From assembly GCA_947497475.1 (NCBI GenBank), contig CANMGS010000001.1:1133747-1197746 (forward strand): a stretch of 64,000 bases of DNA. Reading direction: 5' to 3'. The notes under the pieces are model-generated. The model searched no databases. It was given only the letters and a program-made list of their open reading frames with translations, and had not been told where the DNA came from. Below, in pieces: positions 31,917-42,221 of the stretch. The translations under genes and the position numbers were made by a program. Every line of letters starts with the position of its first letter. Positions within the stretch are counted from its first letter, which is position 1. Source of the DNA: an uncultured Amylibacter sp. (lineage in GTDB: Bacteria > Pseudomonadota > Alphaproteobacteria > Rhodobacterales > Rhodobacteraceae).

Positions 31917-32768
31917 TTATTTTATAGGCCCATTGGCTAAGTTATTAAGCAGTGGTTTATGTGCAAAACCTGTGCTGGAATAAGATTGACGCAAGATATT
32001 TGACGAGGTTTCGTACCCTTTAATTGAATAAGAAATATGTATATCGAATGGTCGCGTTAATGTGGACACTGTGACAGGTATTTGGTGTGTTCGCGAAGCT
32101 TGTGCAACATCAGATCGGACCGATTGTATTGTTTGTTCTAAGTCAGTTTTTTCCACCATCAACGTGTCTAATAAAGCTCCAGTAAATAAGCTGTGTGATC
32201 CCGTACCATCATATGCGGAGTGCCCATATGAAGTCGCGAAAACCAGTAATGTTTCGAGGTTTAAGTTTGAGGTTATGTTTGTGCTCTGGATTATAGAATT
32301 TTCTGTATCAAGAGGCAGTTCTAAACAAGCGTCTAAAATGATAGCCTTTTGCGCAAATGGGTTATCGAAATAATCTAATAAATCTGCTGTAGATATTGCA
32401 GATGCTCTACCTGCTTGATCGTTTATAGATAAGAGCTCAAGTACGTTACCATTCATGTGACTGTGGCCTGCATAATAGACTATGATCTGATTTGCATGAA
32501 CGGCCTGTTGAGATACAAAAGAGAGAGTACGTTTGAAGTCGCTGCTGTTTGTATTCTGGGTTAAAAAAACGGTGAACCCCATGCTGGATAAAACGCGTGC
32601 GATAGAATCCGCATCGCGAGATGCATTTTTTAATTTTGGTAGGTGCTCATAATCAGAGTTGCCAATAACCAGAGCAATCTTTGAGTTATGCACGTTTGCA
32701 AATGCATAGTTGAAAAAAGCGATTACACAGAGAAGTAGTGTTAGATGGAACAGCTGAGAGCGAAACAT
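31917..32768 (-). CDS. Secreted caspase-like (C14) protein
   Basis: This 283-residue protein has an N-terminal signal peptide (hydrophobic residues about 7-24) and a caspase/metacaspase p20-type domain: KIALVIGNSDYEHLPKL near residue 30, the catalytic His in YYAGHSH (His102), and the catalytic Cys in ILDACLE (Cys148). Later comes SYGHSAYDGTGSHSLFTGALL, matching the substrate-loop region of bacterial orthocaspases. The dyad is intact, so it is probably an active peptidase cleaving after basic or acidic residues in the periplasm, or an anchored one. It ends without an obvious terminator and is co-directional with an OmpA gene 5 bp away. A defence role is possible for cytosolic caspases but not favoured for a secreted one. 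Confidence 0.82.
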   Translation of the reverse strand: MFRSQLFHLTLLLCVIAFFNYAFANVHNSKIALVIGNSDYEHLPKLKNASRDADSIARVLSSMGFTVFLTQNTNSSDFKRTLSFVSQQAVHANQIIVYYAGHSHMNGNVLELLSINDQAGRASAISTADLLDYFDNPFAQKAIILDACLELPLDTENSIIQSTNITSNLNLETLLVFATSYGHSAYDGTGSHSLFTGALLDTLMVEKTDLEQTIQSVRSDVAQASRTHQIPVTVSTLTRPFDIHISYSIKGYETSSNILRQSYSSTGFAHKPLLNNLANGPIK

Positions 32769-32773
32769 TTTTA

Positions 32774-33448
32774 TTAACTTTTGGACTGACAGCCGTTTTC
32801 AACGATCTTTGAAGAAAACTCTACGCGACGATTAAAAGGACTTTCGCCTTTTTTATCTGGCAATGGATATGCTTCACCTGCTCCTAAAATCGACAATCGT
32901 TTTTTATCGACCGAATTAAGTGATACGAGATAAGTATAAACTGACTGCGCACGTTTTTTGGACAAGCCTAAATTGTATTGGTCTGAACCAACTGTATCTG
33001 TGTGCCCTGTAATTTTTATACAGTTATCTTTCATTGAGGGTGAATTTAAAACGACTGTGAGGCGTTTTAAATGATCTTGATATTCTTTGGTTAAAACTTC
33101 TGAATCAAAGGCGAAATGGATATAATATCCATTTTCTGACTTTGCAGCTTTGCGATCTATTTTAGGTGTTTTAACGACAGATTTTTGCGGCGCTGTAATT
33201 TGTATTTTTGGAAGTTGTACAATTTTTTGCTGAGCATCTGGAAGTTCTGCTGTGGAATCTAGATTTACAATTAACCCGCGAGATGTGCCTAAGTGATGTG
33301 TTCCCATGCAGCTTGTTTTATTGTCTGGCTTTAGGGCGTTTAATATTGCGCAATTACTGGCATCTATTGGCAGATTGACCTGTGCAAAACTATGGTTAGC
33401 ATTCAATATTGATAATGCCATAACGATTAAGAAGTTGAAGATCTGCAT
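32774..33448 (-). CDS. OmpA-like peptidoglycan-binding protein
   Basis: This 224-residue protein has a signal peptide ending SFA near residue 22, a Pro/Lys-rich linker (about 70-105) and a C-terminal OmpA domain: IHFAFDSEVL near 110, ITGHTDTVGSDQYNLGLSKKRAQ near 145-167 and FNRRVEF near 206, the peptidoglycan-binding residues (Asp and Arg). It is not a lipoprotein, since no lipobox is seen, and has no barrel, so it is likely a periplasmic or wall-associated anchor. It lies upstream of the caspase gene in the same transcript, and divergent from the acyltransferase operon. Confidence 0.85.
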   Translation of the reverse strand: MQIFNFLIVMALSILNANHSFAQVNLPIDASNCAILNALKPDNKTSCMGTHHLGTSRGLIVNLDSTAELPDAQQKIVQLPKIQITAPQKSVVKTPKIDRKAAKSENGYYIHFAFDSEVLTKEYQDHLKRLTVVLNSPSMKDNCIKITGHTDTVGSDQYNLGLSKKRAQSVYTYLVSLNSVDKKRLSILGAGEAYPLPDKKGESPFNRRVEFSSKIVENGCQSKS

Positions 33449-33617: not shown

Positions 33618-34757
33618 ATGGTATGGATTGACGGGCTTCGCTTGATTGCAAGCATCTCTATGATTGGCTTGCATGCATCGTCTGATATTAATGGCCAACC
33701 ATTTCCTGATTTTACTGCGTCTGATCGGGTAGGACCCGTTATGTTTCGGTCAATTATGTATTTGGCTCGTACCGAATTGTTTTTAATTATCTCGTTGTTC
33801 TTACTCTTCATGTCATTGGACAAACGGCCGCGCGGTTATAGGGCTGTGATTAAAGAGCAATCCAAACGGTTACTACGCCCGTTTTTATTCTGGGTGGTTG
33901 TTTATGCGTTTTATCGGTTAGTTAAAGCTTATTCGTTTGGCTATGAAGCAGCCATTTTTGCAGAGCTTGCAAACCCCATTAATTGGGCGGGATATGTCAT
34001 ATTAGGTGATGTACAATATCATATGCACTTCTTGCCGACATTGTTCGCAATGATTTTGCTTTTCCCGATATGTTTGATTGCAATTGATACGCCATGGATC
34101 GGGTTGGTTGTTCTGATCTGTTTATTCGCAAAGCGCGAAGCAGATGTTTGGTTGTGGGCGCATAAAGATATTATTCCAGCGTTTGATTACGTGATCCGTT
34201 TGGTCAAAGTTGTAACCTATATGGGGTATGGGTTTGTTGCTGCGGCGGCTTATGGCATGTTCAAATCGATTAGCCGTAATCAATTATTGCCGTATTTCTA
34301 TGTTCTTCTGTTTACAGGTGTTCTCTTATATCTGCTGAAACTGGTTTACAGTTTTCGTGTTATTGAGAATGGCGACTGGCAATATAATTACGCGCCTGGT
34401 TTTTGGGCGGATTTTTTGATGCCATGTATTCTCTTTTTGCTATTTATGGCTGCCCCAAAGATTAATAATCATAGCCGTCTGTCTACTCTGGCTCCCTATG
34501 GTTTTGGTATATATCTTGTTCATCCAATTTTCTTAGATATGGCAGAGATTGCCATGTGGAAAACTGCGCTTACACCAATGGTTTTTGTAACTTTGAAAGC
34601 GTTATGGGCGCTAACTGCTTCATCAATATTTGTATGGGTTTTATCTAAAACTACTTTGTTTGGCTGGACCGTTGGTTTGGGTTCTTTTCCTAGTCTTAGT
34701 AAAATCGCAAGTATTTTAAATTTAAAAATGAAACTGAAAATATCGAGGAGCAAATGA
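33618..34757 (+). CDS. Acyltransferase-3 family membrane protein
   Basis: This 379-residue protein has about ten hydrophobic helices and begins WIDGLRLIASISMIGLHA, the usual N-terminal block of acyltransferase-3 (PF01757), with the His of the first helix presumed catalytic; LVHPIF near 305 is the typical last-third motif. Such enzymes O-acetylate or O-acylate extracellular polysaccharides or peptidoglycan. ATG 33618 has no good ribosome-binding site; the frame is closed by a stop at 33582, so the start must lie within the last 36 bases, possibly at a rarer codon. It is the first gene of a six- to seven-gene operon and overlaps the STAS gene by four bases. Confidence 0.82.
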   Translation: MVWIDGLRLIASISMIGLHASSDINGQPFPDFTASDRVGPVMFRSIMYLARTELFLIISLFLLFMSLDKRPRGYRAVIKEQSKRLLRPFLFWVVVYAFYRLVKAYSFGYEAAIFAELANPINWAGYVILGDVQYHMHFLPTLFAMILLFPICLIAIDTPWIGLVVLICLFAKREADVWLWAHKDIIPAFDYVIRLVKVVTYMGYGFVAAAAYGMFKSISRNQLLPYFYVLLFTGVLLYLLKLVYSFRVIENGDWQYNYAPGFWADFLMPCILFLLFMAAPKINNHSRLSTLAPYGFGIYLVHPIFLDMAEIAMWKTALTPMVFVTLKALWALTASSIFVWVLSKTTLFGWTVGLGSFPSLSKIASILNLKMKLKISRSK

Positions 34758-35104
34758 TGAAATTTGAAAGGCAAGAACATGGGGCAATTACCCATATCAA
34801 ACTTGAAGAAACGCGATTGGATGCAGCGCAATCCATTCGCTTTAAAGAAGCAGTCCGTGAAATAGTTGATGAAGGTGCGACCCATATTTTATTAGATATG
34901 GGTGCTGTGAATTTCATGGACAGTTCTGGCTTAGGGGCTTTGGTCTCTATGATGAAGTATATGGGAACCGAGAAAAAGTTCGAACTGACTGGACTGACAC
35001 CCATGGTTGAAAAGGTGTTTAAGTTAACCCGTATGGACGAAGTTTTCCAAGTGTATGGGTCAACACAAGAAGCATTATCCGCTTCTGAAAATACGTTGAT
35101 CTAA
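34754..35104 (+). CDS. STAS-domain anti-sigma factor antagonist (RsbV/SpoIIAA type)
   Basis: This 116-residue single STAS domain has the phosphorylation motif DSSGLGALV near residues 56-63; the Ser pair is where the cognate RsbW-type kinase would phosphorylate it. The preceding strand FMD and HILLDMGAVN match SpoIIAA. It lies directly upstream of an RsbW-like gene (stop and start adjacent), forming a classical partner-switch pair. There is no sigma factor, PP2C phosphatase or RsbR/S in the window, so the target partner is unknown. ATG 34754 overlaps the acyltransferase stop. Confidence 0.88.
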   Translation: MMKFERQEHGAITHIKLEETRLDAAQSIRFKEAVREIVDEGATHILLDMGAVNFMDSSGLGALVSMMKYMGTEKKFELTGLTPMVEKVFKLTRMDEVFQVYGSTQEALSASENTLI

Positions 35105-35554
35105 ATGAATAAAAATATTCGTAAAAATCATGCTTCGCCTAATTTCATATTGCGGCGATGCATGGCTAATCGACAAGAGCTTGTCCCGCATTTGCTGGAT
35201 GATATCCAAGACTGGATGAAAACTGTGGGAGTCTCGGAAGGGAAAACAACAGATGTACAAATTGTATTAGCTGAAGCTTTAAACAACGTTATTGAACATG
35301 GGTTTGAGCATGAAAATATGGGAGAGCTTGAAATCCGAATTGAAGTATTTGGTGAAAGAGTAACAGTGCATGTAAGCGATAATGGTATGGAGTTTACACC
35401 GCCAAGTAATACACAAACGCCACTAAAATTTGAGGACAATTTGGATGAATTGCCTGAGGGTGGTTTTGGATGGTTTTTGATTAAAGAAATCACATCTTCT
35501 TTTGAATTTCACCGAAAAAAAGACCGGAACGAATTGATCTTATTTTTTAATTAA
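35105..35554 (+). CDS. RsbW-like ATP-binding anti-sigma kinase
   Basis: This 149-residue GHKL-fold protein shows the N-box VLAEALNNVIEHGF near residues 54-67 (Glu57, Asn60/61), the G1 box SDNG near 91-94 and a second glycine box EGGFGWFLI near 118-126, all intact, so ATP binding and kinase activity are expected. The family phosphorylates a STAS antagonist and, when free, binds a sigma factor or another effector. It starts one base after the STAS gene. Start ATG 35105 gives an N-terminal extension of about 15 residues; ATG 35162 is the likely alternative. Confidence 0.88.
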   Translation: MNKNIRKNHASPNFILRRCMANRQELVPHLLDDIQDWMKTVGVSEGKTTDVQIVLAEALNNVIEHGFEHENMGELEIRIEVFGERVTVHVSDNGMEFTPPSNTQTPLKFEDNLDELPEGGFGWFLIKEITSSFEFHRKKDRNELILFFN

Positions 35555-35678
35555 ACATTGAGTGGAATTTTAGTGAATTAATCTAGGTAGTTATCAAGAA
35601 ATTTACTGAATCAATTTACTAATAGTGCTGGATGTATTGCTCTTTGATTGAGCGGAATTGGATAAGCACTTGATCTTG

Positions 35679-37502
35679 ATGAATATGGAAATTCGTAAAC
35701 TTTTTATTGGAGTGGGAGCCGTTGTCGTTGCATGCAGTTTCCTCGGAGTGATTGTTGTTCTGGGCGATGCGGTTGGGGAAACGGTAACAAGCAACATAAG
35801 TAAAGAAAAAGAGCGATTAAAACGCGAAGCGGATCGTATAGCAGATGCTAAGAAAGCTCAGGCTAAGCAACCTTTAACCTTAGTAGGACAACATAATCCA
35901 CAAGGTTTGGATGCTGATATTTATAAGGCTTCTGGGTTCGCTTTAGAAACAACAGGTTTATCTAAACAAGCTGAAACAAACTTAAAGCAATTGCCAAGTT
36001 TGATGCGTGGCACAATCCCTGTGCAAACATTATCGTCAGTTTATGGGCAAGAAAAGAAAACCAATGCACCTAGAATGTGCGAAATGGAGGAGGATTATTT
36101 TGAAAAACTCGAATTGGATCAACCTTTAAAATCAGGATATTTAGATGATAATTCATATGTGCGTCGCTTTAAACATCGCCGTGGATTTTTAAATGATAGA
36201 GAGATGGCCGCAGCAAAAGTTGCTTGGGGGTATTTTGAAAAGTTTACTCAAGAGACGACCGGCCTTGCCAACTCAGTTGGAGCTTATCCTTCTACAACCC
36301 TATGGGATACAGCTTCCTATGTAAGCGGAATTGTTGCAGCGTATGAGCTGTGCTTGATCGAGAAACCAGAATTCGACAAACGCATGTTGAAGCTGTTGAC
36401 TACGATTAGGAACCTAAAACTTTTCCGTAATGAAATGCCAAATAAAGTTTACCACACGAAAACGGGTGAGCAGGTTGACTATACAAATAAAGCTGGCGAA
36501 ATCGGATATTCCGCGCTGGATATTGGGCGCTTTTTGGTTTGGATGCGTATCATAAGAAACCGATATCCACATTTAGCAAATACAGTTGATAATATGATTT
36601 TGCGTTGGGATTTTGCGAACGTTATCGATGAAGACGGCGTAATGTATGGCGCTGCTGTTGATAAGGAAACCAAAGAAACAATTTATACGCAAGAGGGGCG
36701 TTTAGGCTACGAAGAATATGCAGCCAAAGGATTTGCGCTGTGGGGATTTAAACCTTATTTTGCGCACCGTGCTGAGCCATATCTAACCACAAATATATTT
36801 GATGTACGTGTGCCTTATGATGGCAGAGATCCAAGAATATTTCATTCACAGAACTACGTCGTAACGGAAAGCTATTTACTTGATGGTTTAGAATTGAATT
36901 GGGATTTGCCGCATGATGATGTGTCTGATGATCGTACCCATACAGATGGCTGGCGCGCTGAATTTGCGGACCGTATTTACGAAGTTCAACATAATCGTTT
37001 TGAAATACAGGGATATTTGACCGCACGATCAGAGCACAATGTAAAAGGCCCTCCGTATTTCACGTACGATACAATTTTTTCGGATGGATACCCATGGAAC
37101 ACCGTAACGCCGCGTGGTGATTATGCCCCAGAACATGCGGCCATTGCAACTAAAGCTGCATTTGGATTGTGGGCTTTGTGGGACACGTATTACACGGATA
37201 TTTTATATGACGCTGTTATTGAATTGTTTGATCCAGATCGTGGGTTTTACGAAGGTTTATATGAAGGCGGTAATGGGCATATAGAAATTCAAACAGCGAA
37301 TAATAACGGCATTCTGTTAGCTGCATTATTACATAAAGTGCAGGGCCGAATTTTCACACCATCTCATGCAAAGTCTGAGGTTTGGTTCACCAAATTTAGG
37401 GATCGCGACCTTAGAATCAAACGCGGCCTGCCTGATCCGCCTCAACAAGCAGATTGGTTGCCAGCCTATAAACACCCAGCACAGATAAAGGAAACACAAT
37501 GA
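35679..37502 (+). CDS. DUF3131 membrane-anchored envelope protein
   Basis: This is a protein of about 607 residues with one N-terminal transmembrane helix (about 7-29), a charged coiled-coil-like stretch (about 38-55), and a large DUF3131 domain (about 150-600) of the alpha/alpha-toroid glycoside-hydrolase-like type. Typical blocks are AYPSTTLWDTASYVSGIVAA near 204, GYSALDIGRFLVWMRI near 270, and FYEGLYEGGNGHIEIQTANN near 530. DUF3131 proteins often accompany surface polysaccharide loci; enzymatic activity is unproved. The start is ATG 35679 (or 35685); the TTG at 35658 lacks a ribosome-binding site. It overlaps the next gene by four bases. Confidence 0.85.
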   Translation: MNMEIRKLFIGVGAVVVACSFLGVIVVLGDAVGETVTSNISKEKERLKREADRIADAKKAQAKQPLTLVGQHNPQGLDADIYKASGFALETTGLSKQAETNLKQLPSLMRGTIPVQTLSSVYGQEKKTNAPRMCEMEEDYFEKLELDQPLKSGYLDDNSYVRRFKHRRGFLNDREMAAAKVAWGYFEKFTQETTGLANSVGAYPSTTLWDTASYVSGIVAAYELCLIEKPEFDKRMLKLLTTIRNLKLFRNEMPNKVYHTKTGEQVDYTNKAGEIGYSALDIGRFLVWMRIIRNRYPHLANTVDNMILRWDFANVIDEDGVMYGAAVDKETKETIYTQEGRLGYEEYAAKGFALWGFKPYFAHRAEPYLTTNIFDVRVPYDGRDPRIFHSQNYVVTESYLLDGLELNWDLPHDDVSDDRTHTDGWRAEFADRIYEVQHNRFEIQGYLTARSEHNVKGPPYFTYDTIFSDGYPWNTVTPRGDYAPEHAAIATKAAFGLWALWDTYYTDILYDAVIELFDPDRGFYEGLYEGGNGHIEIQTANNNGILLAALLHKVQGRIFTPSHAKSEVWFTKFRDRDLRIKRGLPDPPQQADWLPAYKHPAQIKETQ

Positions 37503-38929
37503 AGGTTCGTATACATAAATGCTTTTCAGCAATGATCTTATGGTCTGTGGTGTGTTTAAATGTGGTTCATGCTCAGGATGGGGCAAATGAACGTGTCGCG
37601 ATCTTAGATACTGCTATCCCATTTGCGATTGGTTCAAGAGAAGGGGAGCAAACAATTAGGGGCTCGTTTGGTTGGCCAACTTTTCAAGAGGGTTTCGTGC
37701 AAGGTGTATATTTCCGGTTTGATCCTGATGGCTATGCCCGATTTAGTAAAAGCCCACGTTTAGATGAAGATGTTTTTGAAGTTATCTGTGATGCTGGTAC
37801 AACAAAGTGTATTGCGAAAAAAAATAGTTTAGAAATCGGTTTAACCGCTCAGGGGCAGCCACATTTAAATATCATTGGCTTAACCCCAAACGACCGCTTT
37901 TTTATCTCTGATCGAAAAAGCGAACTCCCTTTGCCACAATCTATCTTAGGACCAATTGATCAGCGATTAGAAGTATTGTTGTCTACTGATGGTGACCTTA
38001 TCGTTCGAAGAGAATTGGAAACATTACAAACATTCTCTTTAGTGGGGTTTTCAGCGACGGTTACATATCTTCGGTGGATTTCTCAAAACCAATCATCATT
38101 TATTTTCCCCAGAGGTTGGCCCGTTCCCAGTCAACAAGGTGCTTTGGGAAACACTGCTGAACCTGCGTTAACAACTGGTTTATCAAATACGCAACAAATC
38201 CAAGCAAATCGTTGGGGGACCGTACCAGTTGCCAATCAACAAAATGGGCAGCAAAAATATTCAGGTTTGTCAACACAGTCGTTAAATGTTCAACCCGTCG
38301 GTACGGATACATATGAACTGCCGGCGAGTGAATTTGCACAACAAGCACAAGGCCGTAGTTTGACGTCTGATGTTAATAAATTTGCATTTCCAGCAGAATC
38401 TGGGCCACTCAATAACTCGTACCGGAATAGTGATGAGATGCTTACAAAAGATGGGCAATATACATCGCAAATCTTACAGCAAGAATTGGCGAAGATTAAT
38501 CGTTCGTTGATGAACTTAGGCATCAAGTTAGACAACTTATCGCAACAGATTAATTACGAGGGAACAGTTGCCATTCGAAGTAACCAAAGTGCGGGCAAGC
38601 CAAATACGCGCCTATTTGAGACCACCAATCAAAACCAGCAACCATCTATGATTGATAAAACGGATGCCGAGCAGACACGAGAAGCTGTTATTAAAAGTAC
38701 CTTGGAGGATGTTCAGAATGAAAAAAGCGCCTCTAGAACAAATCTTAATGGCGTGGAACAAGGCGAAGTTTCGGTGAAGAAGACAATTGTTGAAAGGTTA
38801 CTAGAAGAGTTGAGCAGTACAAAAAAGCCGTCCGATGTTGCACCAGAACCAACAGCGCCGAAGGCAAATGAGTTTATCTCTCTATCCGATTACATCAACA
38901 AAGTGATGCAAGAAGAAGCGCAACAGTAA
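37499..38929 (+). CDS. Secreted Q/N-rich protein of unknown family
   Basis: This 476-residue protein begins with a signal peptide cleaved near residue 26 (VVHAQ). It has a globular part to about residue 205 with two Cys (CDAGTTKC near 90-97) likely disulfide-bonded, then a low-complexity Gln/Asn/Ser-rich region (about 210-310), a short coiled-coil (LQQELAKINRSLMNLGIKLD near 325-345) and a charged tail with a Pro-rich patch. I do not recognise it. Four-base overlap with the DUF3131 gene suggests physical partnership; the Q/N-rich linker and coiled coil suit a periplasmic spanning or scaffolding role beside the HlyD adaptor. Confidence 0.72.
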   Translation: MKVRIHKCFSAMILWSVVCLNVVHAQDGANERVAILDTAIPFAIGSREGEQTIRGSFGWPTFQEGFVQGVYFRFDPDGYARFSKSPRLDEDVFEVICDAGTTKCIAKKNSLEIGLTAQGQPHLNIIGLTPNDRFFISDRKSELPLPQSILGPIDQRLEVLLSTDGDLIVRRELETLQTFSLVGFSATVTYLRWISQNQSSFIFPRGWPVPSQQGALGNTAEPALTTGLSNTQQIQANRWGTVPVANQQNGQQKYSGLSTQSLNVQPVGTDTYELPASEFAQQAQGRSLTSDVNKFAFPAESGPLNNSYRNSDEMLTKDGQYTSQILQQELAKINRSLMNLGIKLDNLSQQINYEGTVAIRSNQSAGKPNTRLFETTNQNQQPSMIDKTDAEQTREAVIKSTLEDVQNEKSASRTNLNGVEQGEVSVKKTIVERLLEELSSTKKPSDVAPEPTAPKANEFISLSDYINKVMQEEAQQ

Positions 38930-38948: not shown

Positions 38949-40883
38949 ATGTTAAATGACTTAGCAGTACCAAAGAAACACGACCTTGCTGTTTCGAAAG
39001 AATATTTAAAAAAAGCAATATCTGCTGGGAAAGATGTACCCATGTGGATGAAAACAGCATCAGCAGTTTTAGGTTTTTTAACAAGCTTTTTGCTGGTTGG
39101 ATTACCTGCAATCGCATTGATTATCTATGATCGGGTTTTACCCTCTGGTAAAGTTGATGCACTGTGGACGTTTTTATATCTTGGCCTAACAACTGTCATT
39201 TGTGTTTGTCTGATTGAATTTATGCGCATGAAGGCTCTTCAAGGTTACGTTGTGAATGTAAGAGGTATGATCTTTTTGCAAGATTCATGCTTTGCTGTTT
39301 TCTGGGCGTTTTTAGTTGGGTTTATTCACCCGTTTTTGGCAGTGCCTTCTATTATATCTGCGAGCCTCCTTTTTATTGCATGGAAATTTCGCAAGCCTTT
39401 AAAAAAAGAAAATACTCAAGATACAGACTTACCTGATTTTGAAGCAGAAAAAATTGATGCTTGTGGGTTGGGTCCAGCATTTTACGAAATGGCCGCACAA
39501 GGTAAGTTTCCATCTATACAAAGGTTGGATTTCCAGACGCTTGGGCAATGGCTTACAACAACCCTGCTGCGTCGCGTTACATTTGTTTGTGTCTTGGTGC
39601 TAAGCGCGTGGCTGGTGATTAATAATAACGTTTCAATTGGAACGGCGATTGCGACAATTTTCTTAAATCAATTGAACTTGGAAGTGTTCATAAGATGTTA
39701 TCAAGTGCAGTCATTATCAACGCCACGGCGTGATGTGAGCCAGCTGGAAAAAATCCTTTTACAACGGGATAAAAACAGTGCCGATATAACAGATTTATCA
39801 CCTATGGCGAATTTTTTATCCATTGATGGATTAAAGGCTGATGGATTTTCACCTATCTCCGCAGATGTGTTTTCTGGATTATGTTTAACATTTATTGGCC
39901 CATCTGGGTGTGGAAAATCGCGAATTTTAAAAGCGATCGCAACGAATGATTTTGAGGCAGGCAAAGTCGAGTTTGGAGGAAAAAGACTTGATCGTTTAGC
40001 CCAAGGAACACGCGTTATCGGATATGTGCCGCCTAGTCCTATTAATCTGCCAGGTACATTTGTGGAAAACGTTACGGGGTTTAATCCACAAGCAGATACA
40101 TTGAGTGCGTTAGAATTATTAATGCAGCTTGATCCATATGAGGACGTTTTCAGAGATGATGATCTATTGAATGAGCGATTAGAAAATAATTTTAGCGCAC
40201 AAGGCCAATTGGTATCCATTGCGAGAGCTTTACATATGGATCCGTCCATTCTGATTATAGATTCACCAGAATTATTTTTGGATAAGGCGTCAAAATCTGC
40301 CTTACTCGCTTTGATTTTAAAGGCGAAGACCGAAGGGAAAATTGTTTTGCTTGCAACAGACGATGATTATCTCATGTCGGCTGCAGATGAAGTCATAAAG
40401 CTGGACCGTGGTATTATTACAGATCGTGGACCAATGGATGAGGTTCTTGAGCGCCATCATGAAAGATGGGTTCGCGTGTCCTTTAAACCGAATAAACGAG
40501 ATGCGTTTCGACTGGGATTATGGCTTGATGCACAACTGGGATACAGATTTGATAAAAACTTTCATGAACGCGTTAAGTTGGCTGTGAGTGATCTACTATT
40601 CTTAGCACCTCGCGATAGCTTTGGGGGTCGTGATGAGAATAGTATAATTGATTTAAAAGTAGGCTTGTCAGAAGTTATTGTTACGCTTCATGACCGCGGG
40701 GAACTATTGGAAGCCGTTGATGCAAATACTCAAGATTCAGATATATCGAGCATGGAAGTATTAAGACTACTTTCGAATACGGATCAATTTCAGCAAAAAC
40801 TGAAGGAAGGCTATCGCCAGATAACAGTTCGCTTTTGCACAGAACGCCCTGAAATCACCGTTGATGCTGCAGTGGGTGCTTAA
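38949..40883 (+). CDS. Degenerate type-I-secretion-like ABC protein with GHKL-like tail
   Basis: This 644-residue protein has a transmembrane domain of PrtD/HlyB kind (YDRVLPSGKVDAL near residues 60-72, about six helices up to 250), then a nucleotide-binding domain with an intact Walker A GPSGCGKS (317-324). However, the Q-loop Gln is Pro (GYVPPSP near 358-364), the signature is FSAQGQ near 415-420, Walker B ends IIDSPE so the catalytic Glu is Ser (about 439), and the switch His is Asp (LATDDDY near 470). Residues about 507-633 match the RsbW layout (VKLAVSDLL; VIVTLHDRGE; ITVRF) without the N-box Asn or glycine box. ATP hydrolysis looks unlikely. Confidence 0.78.
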   Translation: MLNDLAVPKKHDLAVSKEYLKKAISAGKDVPMWMKTASAVLGFLTSFLLVGLPAIALIIYDRVLPSGKVDALWTFLYLGLTTVICVCLIEFMRMKALQGYVVNVRGMIFLQDSCFAVFWAFLVGFIHPFLAVPSIISASLLFIAWKFRKPLKKENTQDTDLPDFEAEKIDACGLGPAFYEMAAQGKFPSIQRLDFQTLGQWLTTTLLRRVTFVCVLVLSAWLVINNNVSIGTAIATIFLNQLNLEVFIRCYQVQSLSTPRRDVSQLEKILLQRDKNSADITDLSPMANFLSIDGLKADGFSPISADVFSGLCLTFIGPSGCGKSRILKAIATNDFEAGKVEFGGKRLDRLAQGTRVIGYVPPSPINLPGTFVENVTGFNPQADTLSALELLMQLDPYEDVFRDDDLLNERLENNFSAQGQLVSIARALHMDPSILIIDSPELFLDKASKSALLALILKAKTEGKIVLLATDDDYLMSAADEVIKLDRGIITDRGPMDEVLERHHERWVRVSFKPNKRDAFRLGLWLDAQLGYRFDKNFHERVKLAVSDLLFLAPRDSFGGRDENSIIDLKVGLSEVIVTLHDRGELLEAVDANTQDSDISSMEVLRLLSNTDQFQQKLKEGYRQITVRFCTERPEITVDAAVGA

Positions 40884-42221
40884 ATGTGGCGGTTTCGAAA
40901 ACGCAAAGATCATTTGCCAAAAGTGCTGCAAAATATTGATGTATTGGTTTCTACTAATGAACGGAAGATTGCTTTTGCCAAGCAAGGGAAAGCTTTTTTA
41001 CTTTTTATAATCGCAACAGGCATATTGCTGTTCGGAGCATTCCTGATGATGCTACAGTTTTATAATGCATCACTGCAATATTCTAAAGCCAGTTGGATAC
41101 AGGTGCGAAACCTTACTCCGATTAAGGTTGTATCAGCACCTTCGATGGGTGTTTTAGATAAAGTGTTCGTAAGCTCAGGACAATTGGTTCAAAAAGGTGC
41201 GCTTTTAGCATCCCTTAGAATGGATGATCTTCAACTAGAACTTGACGAAACAAAAAGAAAGTTTGCCGAAAAAATTGTTGAACTGCATTGTCTTACCTCT
41301 TTAAAAACCAACCGATCCATATTTCAACTTCCGTATGATGCGCAATTACTTGTCGATAAAATGACCCAAATTGAGCGCATTGAATACAAAGTCGCCAAAT
41401 GTGAACGAGAGCTTTTAAAAAACTTACACTTTGATCAAGAATTAGAAGAAATGATTGCGGCATTAGAAGACCAAACTCGTGTTCTGGACAAGATTGTGAA
41501 AATACGTGGAGTGATCGAAGCAGATTTAAGTCAAGAGCCAGAAATTGATTTCCTGTTCGGCATAGATCAACAAGCTCTTCAAAAGGCATATCGAGACCAA
41601 TATTTCCCACTTATGCAGTATGCGATTGTGCAACAAGATTTACATGAGGCAAGGCTTTCATATTTTTCACGACAGTTGGAAAAAGAAAAAGATTTAAGCA
41701 GCGCGATTGATCTGACTACGCAGGAAATGCGTTATTTAAGCCAACGTTTGCGTGATCTAGATAAGCAAATGAAAAGTAATTTTATATATGCGTCTACGAC
41801 AGGTGTGATTGTTGGGGGGGAATTGCCGCAAATTGGATTTGAGTATGCAGCACAAGAAACAATTTTTGAGCTACAGCCTTTGCAAAGCCAATTCCAAATT
41901 GGAATTGTTTTGGGAGAGAATGATGTCTCTCGATTTGGTAAAGGCACGCGAACGCAAATTACCTTGGCCGATGGCCAAAAAACCATTGGCGAACTTTACG
42001 GGAAATCCGCTGGTGTATTCAGGCAGTCAAATGGCCAGTTAGAAGCATTATTAGATTTAGAAGATCGTGCAAAAGATAATGCGAAAGCTATTTTAATGGC
42101 TGGGTACCAAGGTGCTGGTGAACAGCGTATCAAGGCGAATATTACGACGGGTCAGGAAAAAATATGGCATTCTATTCGCAGCAGTATAAATGATGTAATC
42201 CCGTTTGATGTGCGTCTTTAG
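40884..42221 (+). CDS. HlyD-family membrane fusion adaptor
   Basis: This 445-residue protein has a short cytoplasmic N-terminus, one transmembrane helix (about 38-60), a lipoyl half (IKVVSAPSMGVLDKVFVSSGQLVQKG near 85-110, given here as landmarks), long predicted coiled-coil hairpins (about 115-310), the second lipoyl half (STTGVIVGGELPQIG near 315) and a beta-barrel end. It starts one base after the ABC gene and is presumed to partner it in a type-I-secretion-like complex bridging to an outer-membrane TolC encoded elsewhere. It ends in a four-base convergent overlap (TTAG) with cbiB. Confidence 0.85.
   Translation: MWRFRKRKDHLPKVLQNIDVLVSTNERKIAFAKQGKAFLLFIIATGILLFGAFLMMLQFYNASLQYSKASWIQVRNLTPIKVVSAPSMGVLDKVFVSSGQLVQKGALLASLRMDDLQLELDETKRKFAEKIVELHCLTSLKTNRSIFQLPYDAQLLVDKMTQIERIEYKVAKCERELLKNLHFDQELEEMIAALEDQTRVLDKIVKIRGVIEADLSQEPEIDFLFGIDQQALQKAYRDQYFPLMQYAIVQQDLHEARLSYFSRQLEKEKDLSSAIDLTTQEMRYLSQRLRDLDKQMKSNFIYASTTGVIVGGELPQIGFEYAAQETIFELQPLQSQFQIGIVLGENDVSRFGKGTRTQITLADGQKTIGELYGKSAGVFRQSNGQLEALLDLEDRAKDNAKAILMAGYQGAGEQRIKANITTGQEKIWHSIRSSINDVIPFDVRL

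Follow-up and report, generated by a model that had tools for sequence, protein, structure and literature searches.

A pseudo-ATPase ABC half-transporter with a predicted RsbW-like tail, a candidate receptor for a STAS protein in Amylibacter and other Rhodobacteraceae

Results

An ABC half-transporter encoded with a STAS protein and an RsbW-type kinase

The window analysed here is a stretch of 64,000 nucleotides from an uncultured Amylibacter sp. (GCA_947497475.1, contig CANMGS010000001.1, positions 1,133,747-1,197,746, forward strand). It contains an operon encoding, in this order, an acyltransferase, a STAS protein, an RsbW kinase, a DUF3131 protein, a 476-aa protein, an ATP-binding cassette (ABC) protein and a HlyD-type adaptor; genes for an OmpA-domain protein and a caspase-like protein are divergent from it. 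The evidence below points to the ABC protein being a conserved pseudo-transporter whose RsbW-like tail docks the STAS protein at the membrane and so switches a likely polysaccharide machine, a reading to which we give a probability of roughly one half.

Motif counts were taken from one alignment of 70 Amylibacter-type proteins (that of the window included), 57 database homologues from other Rhodobacteraceae, 20 copies from non-Amylibacter loci and 23 canonical proteins (7 RTX-linked transporters, 11 PrtD and 5 LssB proteins). Triple counts refer to the first three sets in that order; eight of the 20 locus copies are also among the 57 homologues, so the sets are not additive. Proteins of over 560 aa were aligned, which left out 2 of 72 Amylibacter-type and 4 of 61 database proteins; a first motif reading had left out 3 of 73 Amylibacter-type matches (P0025, P0028, P0073). 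The features of the ABC gene are as follows (positions in the window).

38949..40883, + strand: pseudo-ATPase ABC half-transporter, PrtD-like, of the kind found in type I secretion systems (T1SS), 644 aa (open reading frame; nearest NCBIfam TIGR01842; fold PrtD 5l22)
39042..39713, + strand: transmembrane domain, residues 32-255 (AlphaFold2 model, six predicted helices)
39807..40463, + strand: degenerate nucleotide-binding domain (NBD), residues 287-505
39897..39920, + strand: Walker A, intact, G317-S324 (Lys in 70/70, 57/57, 20/20)
40032..40034, + strand: Q-loop Gln position, Pro362 (Gln in 0/70, 0/57, 0/20; 23/23 canonical)
40188..40202, + strand: signature position, NFSAQ, residues 414-418 (signature Ser in 2/70 Amylibacter type)
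40260..40271, + strand: Walker B, D438-S-P-E441 (catalytic Glu in 0/70, 0/57, 0/20)
40359..40361, + strand: switch His position, Asp471 (Asp in 70/70 Amylibacter type)
40452..40880, + strand: C-terminal tail, residues 502-644, RsbW/SpoIIAB fold in a predicted model

The nearest NCBIfam model was TIGR01842 (PrtD; 3e-28), whose cut-off of 510 lies far above the 98.7 bits obtained. The AlphaFold2 model of the full-length protein (mean pLDDT 74.9, pTM 0.50) showed six membrane helices and an NBD, the half-transporter fold of a T1SS exporter, and its best Foldseek row was PrtD (5l22). Type I exporters usually have a long cytoplasmic extension between transmembrane helices 2 and 3 (TM2 and TM3) that carries the coupling helix. 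TM2 (70-97) and TM3 (104-126) are only six residues apart in the model, suggesting at its medium confidence that this extension is missing. The protein thus has in common with PrtD-type T1SS transporters (5l22; TIGR01842) the six-helix half-transporter with its NBD and an adjoining HlyD-type adaptor gene, but it differs in lacking the catalytic Glu, Q-loop Gln, switch His, a normal signature and, in the model, the TM2-TM3 extension, and in carrying an extra RsbW-like tail. Its gene is surrounded by likely polysaccharide genes; no RTX-type substrate gene was recognised among the eight locus proteins scanned, a scan not aimed at distant substrates.

The hydrolysis motifs are eroded throughout the family

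As the earlier note on this DNA had read from the window, Walker A (IGPSGCGKS, residues 316-324) is intact, and the Q-loop Gln (Pro362), the signature, the catalytic Glu (Ser439) and the switch His (Asp471) are changed. The Walker B Asp (Asp438) is kept in 70/70, 56/57 and 20/20 proteins, with Ser439 at the position of the catalytic Glu. The canonical LSGGQ aligns with N414-F-S-A-Q418; Amylibacter-type signatures are mostly xFSAQ or xNxAQ with the final Gln in 70/70, and non-Amylibacter signatures retain the first Leu, with Ser changed to Pro in 12 of the 20 loci. The switch His was found in 0/70, 3/57 and 0/20. All 23 canonical proteins have the catalytic Glu and the Q-loop Gln, and 22 have the switch His. 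All of the T1SS motifs for hydrolysis (catalytic Glu, Q-loop Gln, switch His and LSGGQ-type signature) are therefore wanting here; for the roles of these residues we follow PMC7756269. The erosion is common to all members counted, which rules out a frame artefact as well as the sequencing artefact that the earlier note had considered. Because these four motifs are eroded across the family, we strongly infer that ATP hydrolysis has been lost and that the ATPase is very likely dead; ATP binding by the NBD may remain, Walker A being intact.

A Glu stands at Walker B Asp+3 (DxPE), two places past the missing catalytic Glu, in 70/70, 55/57 and 20/20 proteins. This residue is near-invariant among pseudo-ATPase members, and canonical relatives have Asn, Thr or Ser there.

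The earlier note had suggested that signalling is coupled to export. Pumping by the ABC protein itself agrees poorly with a very likely dead ATPase and a TM2-TM3 extension missing in the model, and that part of the proposal is not supported. The protein might still transport, either paired with an intact ABC protein in a heterodimer or through ATP binding without hydrolysis: Walker A is intact throughout, a HlyD-type adaptor is encoded next door, and exporters are well known in which one of the two sites of a heterodimer is degenerate (PMC7756269). In such a heterodimer, however, this protein's Walker A/B would serve one ATP site and its signature the other, so that both would be degenerate; the operon encodes no ABC partner, and the TM2-TM3 extension missing in the model counts against transport here too. 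A second ABC match (E<=1e-40) was found in 12 of 22 genomes with the full-length form, among the matches listed and with few candidates scored in each. We consider continued transport very unlikely.

The C-terminal tail

Structure prediction and a fold search assigned the tail the GHKL fold of the RsbW subgroup (RsbW/SpoIIAB), as had been proposed for it; the assignment is that of a predicted model. The tail had also been described as lacking the ATP-binding Asn and the glycine box; the loss of ATP-binding features proved to be less than total. The N-box Asn position 552 (register by alignment) is Leu in 46 and Phe in 24 of the 70 Amylibacter-type tails, and a GxG is absent from residues 585-620 in every one of them; all 70 nevertheless share a G1-like D-x-G (HDRG, D582/G584). 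Outside Amylibacter, a GxG is present in that region in 3/20 and 5/57 tails. Compared with RsbW/SpoIIAB anti-sigma kinases, the tail therefore shares the predicted fold but has no N-box Asn and, in the Amylibacter type, no glycine-rich second box, and it is fused to a membrane ABC protein.

Sequence searches were less informative. Pfam gave no match on two bare tails, and a PDB sequence search with tail profiles returned short, seemingly unrelated matches only. Tail alignment A2 comprised 12 of 13 tails (window plus 12 loci, L043 left out). With larger sets, hhalign scores exceeded those of all 40 column shuffles for two of three, the combined tails and the RTX-linked tails.

RTX-linked T1SS transporters carry a homologous tail

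In other Rhodobacteraceae, RTX-linked T1SS ABC transporters (L039:9589-11517, - strand, and L065-L070) carry a homologous C-terminal tail. These seven transporters have a normal catalytic Glu and Q-loop Gln, and one is without the switch His. RTX-repeat genes adjoin the ABC gene in all six loci scanned (L066, the seventh, was left out), and no STAS match was found in the fetched flanks. Pfam gave no match in the L039 tail. The RTX-linked tails matched the pseudo-ATPase tail profile with an E value of 5.9e-4 over 109 columns (control against STAS, 0.63), and Trp525 is invariant in both groups. In a tree of 50 proteins, the pseudo-ATPase form was set off by a branch with support 100/100 and the RTX-linked tailed form by one with 100/99; PrtD and LssB proteins stood apart from both (98/92), and the tool warns of long branches meeting there. 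The simplest reading of these sequences is that a tailed T1SS transporter lost its ATPase once.

On these results, the tail is not a relic of the operon's own RsbW. A copy of the operon RsbW is ruled out by the homologous tail on RTX-linked transporters with normal ATPase motifs and by a profile likeness no better than a control. Since those transporters show no STAS in their fetched flanks, the tail predates its pairing with STAS.

The same findings favour an explanation in which the tail came from T1SS transporters as a purely structural element for dimerisation or assembly and binds no STAS protein, the action of STAS lying elsewhere (on transcription or the synthase, for instance). The seven tailed transporters whose catalytic Glu and Q-loop Gln are normal, their RTX context without a STAS match, the tail-to-tail profile match and the shared Trp525 would all fit it. 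This explanation does not account for the charge of tail helix 1, which is basic where STAS has Asp23 and acidic elsewhere, nor for the STAS domain that accompanies the pseudo-ATPase form wherever it is readable (both below). We hold it to be unlikely.

A STAS domain accompanies the pseudo-ATPase

The two genes of the putative partner-switching pair are as follows.

34754..35104, + strand: STAS protein, phospho-serine loop MDSSGLG intact, proposed tail ligand (PF01740 3.3e-17; TIGR00377; S57 12/12, D23 12/12)
35105..35554, + strand: RsbW-type kinase, N box and LPEGGFGW box intact, proposed to act on STAS (PF13581 1.2e-23; PDB RsbW 3.4e-10)

The operon thus encodes a STAS protein with a phosphorylatable Ser together with an RsbW kinase, whose boxes are invariant columns in nine aligned relatives (alignment A4, 9 of 12 rows). 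A STAS domain was encoded with the ABC protein wherever the gene was readable, in 11 Amylibacter loci and as nine fusions elsewhere, where it forms the N-terminal part of a nucleotidyltransferase. This count left out two of 11 nucleotidyltransferase frames as incomplete (L104, L105), and L099 was aligned without a Pfam scan. PF01740 matched eight of the nine scanned fusion proteins (E 5e-3 to 1.7e-8, six above the curated cut-off); the N-terminus of the ninth, L105, is absent from the fetched piece. In the window genome, the nucleotidyltransferase search gave one weak match (33%) on another contig, and the fusion partner seems to have been lost there. In two of the fusions (L064:7720-9207 and L110:17063-18604) the nucleotidyltransferase domain no longer matches PF00483; judging from these sequences, it seems to be eroding while STAS remains.

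No RsbW gene was detected at any of the 20 non-Amylibacter loci (E<=1e-4, search confined to the loci) with a profile that does recover it in two Amylibacter controls. The phosphosite Ser is kept in 12/12 Amylibacter STAS proteins and replaced in 9/9 aligned fusions. Asp23 of STAS is present in 12/12 Amylibacter proteins versus 1/9 fusions, and Arg521 of the tail in 69/70 Amylibacter-type proteins versus 1/20 other loci. Among the loci read, L064 is the sole outside genome to keep either residue, and it keeps both. Tail helix 1 has a mean net charge of +1.0 in the 70 Amylibacter-type proteins, -2.25 in the 20 other loci and -1.71 in the seven RTX-linked transporters. In the predicted SypA-SypE complex, STAS Asp residues meet kinase Arg residues (PMC10120452). 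Because a STAS domain is encoded with the ABC protein in all readable loci and the Asp and Arg go together, docking of STAS on the tail, as the earlier note had proposed, is supported indirectly.

The tail or the NBD could instead be a direct sensor of a nucleotide or another ligand, unrelated to STAS, with RsbW and STAS controlling a sigma factor. Walker A and DxPE, kept in nearly all members, and the intact RsbW encoded beside STAS speak for such a sensor. On the other side, we saw no gene for a sigma factor in the operon, and the 20 other loci keep the tail and, where readable, STAS, with no RsbW gene detected. We judge this quite unlikely.

Likely polymer genes at a second locus

About 65 kb before the window on the same contig lie genes for a GT2 synthase, a second DUF3131 protein and a Hpt protein, with a gene for a response-regulator PP2C phosphatase transcribed divergently from them (L025:5493-10436, G000:C1). 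The phosphatase and synthase missing from the operon are likely those of this locus. Within the genus, GT2 was found in 13/14 genomes with the ABC gene versus 4/19 without it (33 genomes; Fisher p 5.9e-5), and one of those four (G009) has stops in the GT2 frame. The phosphatase (RR-PP2C, also RR-SpoIIE) is adjacent to GT2 in 15 of 17 GT2 genomes. A GT2 synthase, as expected of an exopolysaccharide system, is thus linked to or co-occurs with the ABC gene; among the 20 non-Amylibacter loci, several of which end at contig edges, GT2 lies near the ABC gene in 13 and a nucleotidyltransferase in 11. One genome (G249) has the synthase, two DUF3131, STAS fusion, acyltransferase, ABC, HlyD and 476-aa-type genes in one cluster. 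The GT2/ABC co-occurrence, the phosphatase adjacency and this cluster make it likely that kinase, phosphatase, STAS, pseudo-transporter and synthase belong to one system.

Discussion

Proposed switch

In the reading of STAS docking on the pseudo-transporter, the eroded motifs, the operon and the second locus are seen in the sequence, the tail fold is predicted, and the steps that follow are conjectural. A signal would reach the Hpt protein and the response-regulator phosphatase. RsbW would phosphorylate STAS at Ser57, and the PP2C protein would remove the phosphate. Unphosphorylated STAS would then bind the paired tails of the ABC dimer and alter the ABC-HlyD complex, permitting or blocking polymer synthesis, acylation or release, with the GT2, acyltransferase and DUF3131 proteins as the polymer-side executors. 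The NBD may bind ATP as a structural switch without turnover. In other Rhodobacteraceae, the STAS-tail contact would be constitutive, because no RsbW was seen at those loci and STAS is fused to the nucleotidyltransferase. We suggest, tentatively, a broader view in which a whole ABC exporter has turned receptor, a non-hydrolysing transporter whose kinase-fold tail receives STAS and controls polysaccharide, the older contact elsewhere being kinase-free and the kinase overlaid in Amylibacter.

Several observations weigh against STAS docking. Sequence profiles barely connect the tail with RsbW: the match of the tail to the operon RsbW profile (P 0.04) did not improve on that of the STAS control (0.021), and an hhalign comparison of 77 non-Amylibacter tails scored 13.7, not above the shuffle maximum of 18.4. 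The ancestral job of the tail was probably something other than STAS binding, because RTX-linked tailed transporters with a normal ATPase show no STAS in the fetched flanks. The association of Asp23 with Arg521 reflects no more than a single co-loss on the tree rather than repeated independent changes, and so gives support and not proof. Arg517 occurs in 70/70, 0/57 and 0/20 proteins, L064 therefore lacking it, and Arg521 occurs in one of the 57 homologues from outside Amylibacter (P0200), whose STAS was not seen. The register of these Arg residues to the STAS-contacting Arg of SpoIIAB is approximate, by about two residues. Ser57 is taken by us to be the phosphorylated Ser from alignment with SpoIIAA, and the Ser that follows this position is still Ser in 6/9 fusions. 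On the polymer side, the window genome has GT2 some 104 kb away from the ABC gene, the ABC-bearing G011 (79% complete) showed no GT2, and the phosphatase also occurs in genus genomes without GT2.

Relation to known systems

In Pel polysaccharide synthesis, PelD is a membrane protein whose degenerate signalling domain serves as receptor for polymer synthesis; it differs in having other folds and in answering to c-di-GMP rather than to a STAS protein. In Vibrio fischeri, SypA and SypE likewise place a STAS protein and an RsbW-type kinase in a polysaccharide context (PMC10120452, PMC8256260), with SypA as the output (PMC10120452), and the direct target of SypA is described as unknown in both papers. 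Here, in contrast, separate proteins supply the kinase and the phosphatase, and the operon encodes a candidate membrane target. MlaB, a STAS protein, binds the ABC NBD of MlaF (PMC7367683). That pair also joins a STAS domain to an ABC protein, but MlaB binds a working NBD directly, whereas the site proposed here is an RsbW-like tail on a pseudo-ATPase.

Our search of the open-access literature found no paper joining a STAS domain, RsbW, an ABC transporter and exopolysaccharide, and for T1SS with a C-terminal extension or GHKL domain MlaFB was the only relevant match; a STAS output on a pseudo-ATPase ABC protein with a kinase-fold tail was not found there. According to PMC8256260 and PMC10120452, the STAS output proteins SypA, HmpV and RbaV act or possibly act on unknown targets. 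If docking on the tail is true, the operon itself likely encodes the STAS target, and partner switching would here have an output that acts directly on a membrane protein. Many genera would then have retained an ABC transporter that is a pseudo-ATPase and combines, in a single chain, two differently folded pseudo-catalytic domains, and DUF3131, named by only three papers in our search, would be assigned to a defined envelope system.

Occurrence

A first search returned 72 Amylibacter-type relatives at E<=2.6e-103, followed by a gap to PrtD proteins at 3.7e-20 (alignment A1 used 31 of 73 homologues). Scanning genome contigs gave 13 loci, namely one distant ABC match in a Lewinellaceae genome and 12 true relatives in Amylibacter or unnamed Rhodobacteraceae/Alphaproteobacteria genomes. 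Within Amylibacter the ABC gene is not universal, being present in 14/33 genomes. A profile including two other genera detected full-length members in 22/394 Rhodobacteraceae genomes with 21 genus labels (rows at E<=2.4e-91 spanning most of the profile). A single-protein query matched two of 337 genomes of the class, both Rhodobacteraceae (E<=1e-25). Another, from a different genus, gave 61 matches in the protein database, where named members include Actibacterium, Shimia, Sulfitobacter, Roseivivax, Pseudoruegeria and Roseicyclus. The A7 profile search of the protein database gave 19 rows with one clear member among the best 7996 word-sharing candidates scored.

Neighbouring genes

The remaining genes of the operon and its divergent neighbours are as follows.

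31917..32768, - strand: caspase-like (Peptidase_C14) protein, divergent (PF00656 7e-32; conserved beside the operon in Amylibacter relatives)
32774..33448, - strand: OmpA-domain protein, divergent (PF00691; conserved beside the operon in Amylibacter relatives)
33618..34757, + strand: membrane acyltransferase, Acyl_transf_3 (PF01757 2.8e-27; same place in most relatives, absent in L037)
35658..37502, + strand: DUF3131 protein (PF11329 9.6e-113; beside the ABC gene in 18/20 non-Amylibacter loci)
37499..38929, + strand: 476-aa protein, family unassigned, N-terminal half conserved (homologue in 18/20 non-Amylibacter loci)
40884..42221, + strand: HlyD-type adaptor (TIGR01843 5.5e-10, under the cut-off; HlyD-like reading frame in 18/20 non-Amylibacter loci)

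The 476-aa protein had no Pfam or NCBIfam match. The seven-gene order is the same in 9 of the 12 relatives' stretches; of the others, L032 and L038 end at a contig edge and L037 lacks the acyltransferase. A defence-system reading was rejected, as the PADLOC matches were to ATPase-bearing and caspase models with weak scores. L109 and L112 likewise have an OmpA/caspase pair close to the ABC gene. In L030:2479-4412 (G001), one of the nine stretches with the full gene order, stop codons, real or from an assembly error, split the ABC gene into two frames. Between two Amylibacter clades, identity is about 21-25% for the HlyD adaptor, about 43-48% for the ABC protein and about 70-74% for DUF3131 (88% for one partial copy), HlyD being far more variable than either of the other two. 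In one clade, HlyD is followed by an additional gene of about 525 aa (L033:13075-14649 and relatives), whose L033 copy shows weak pentapeptide-repeat similarity.
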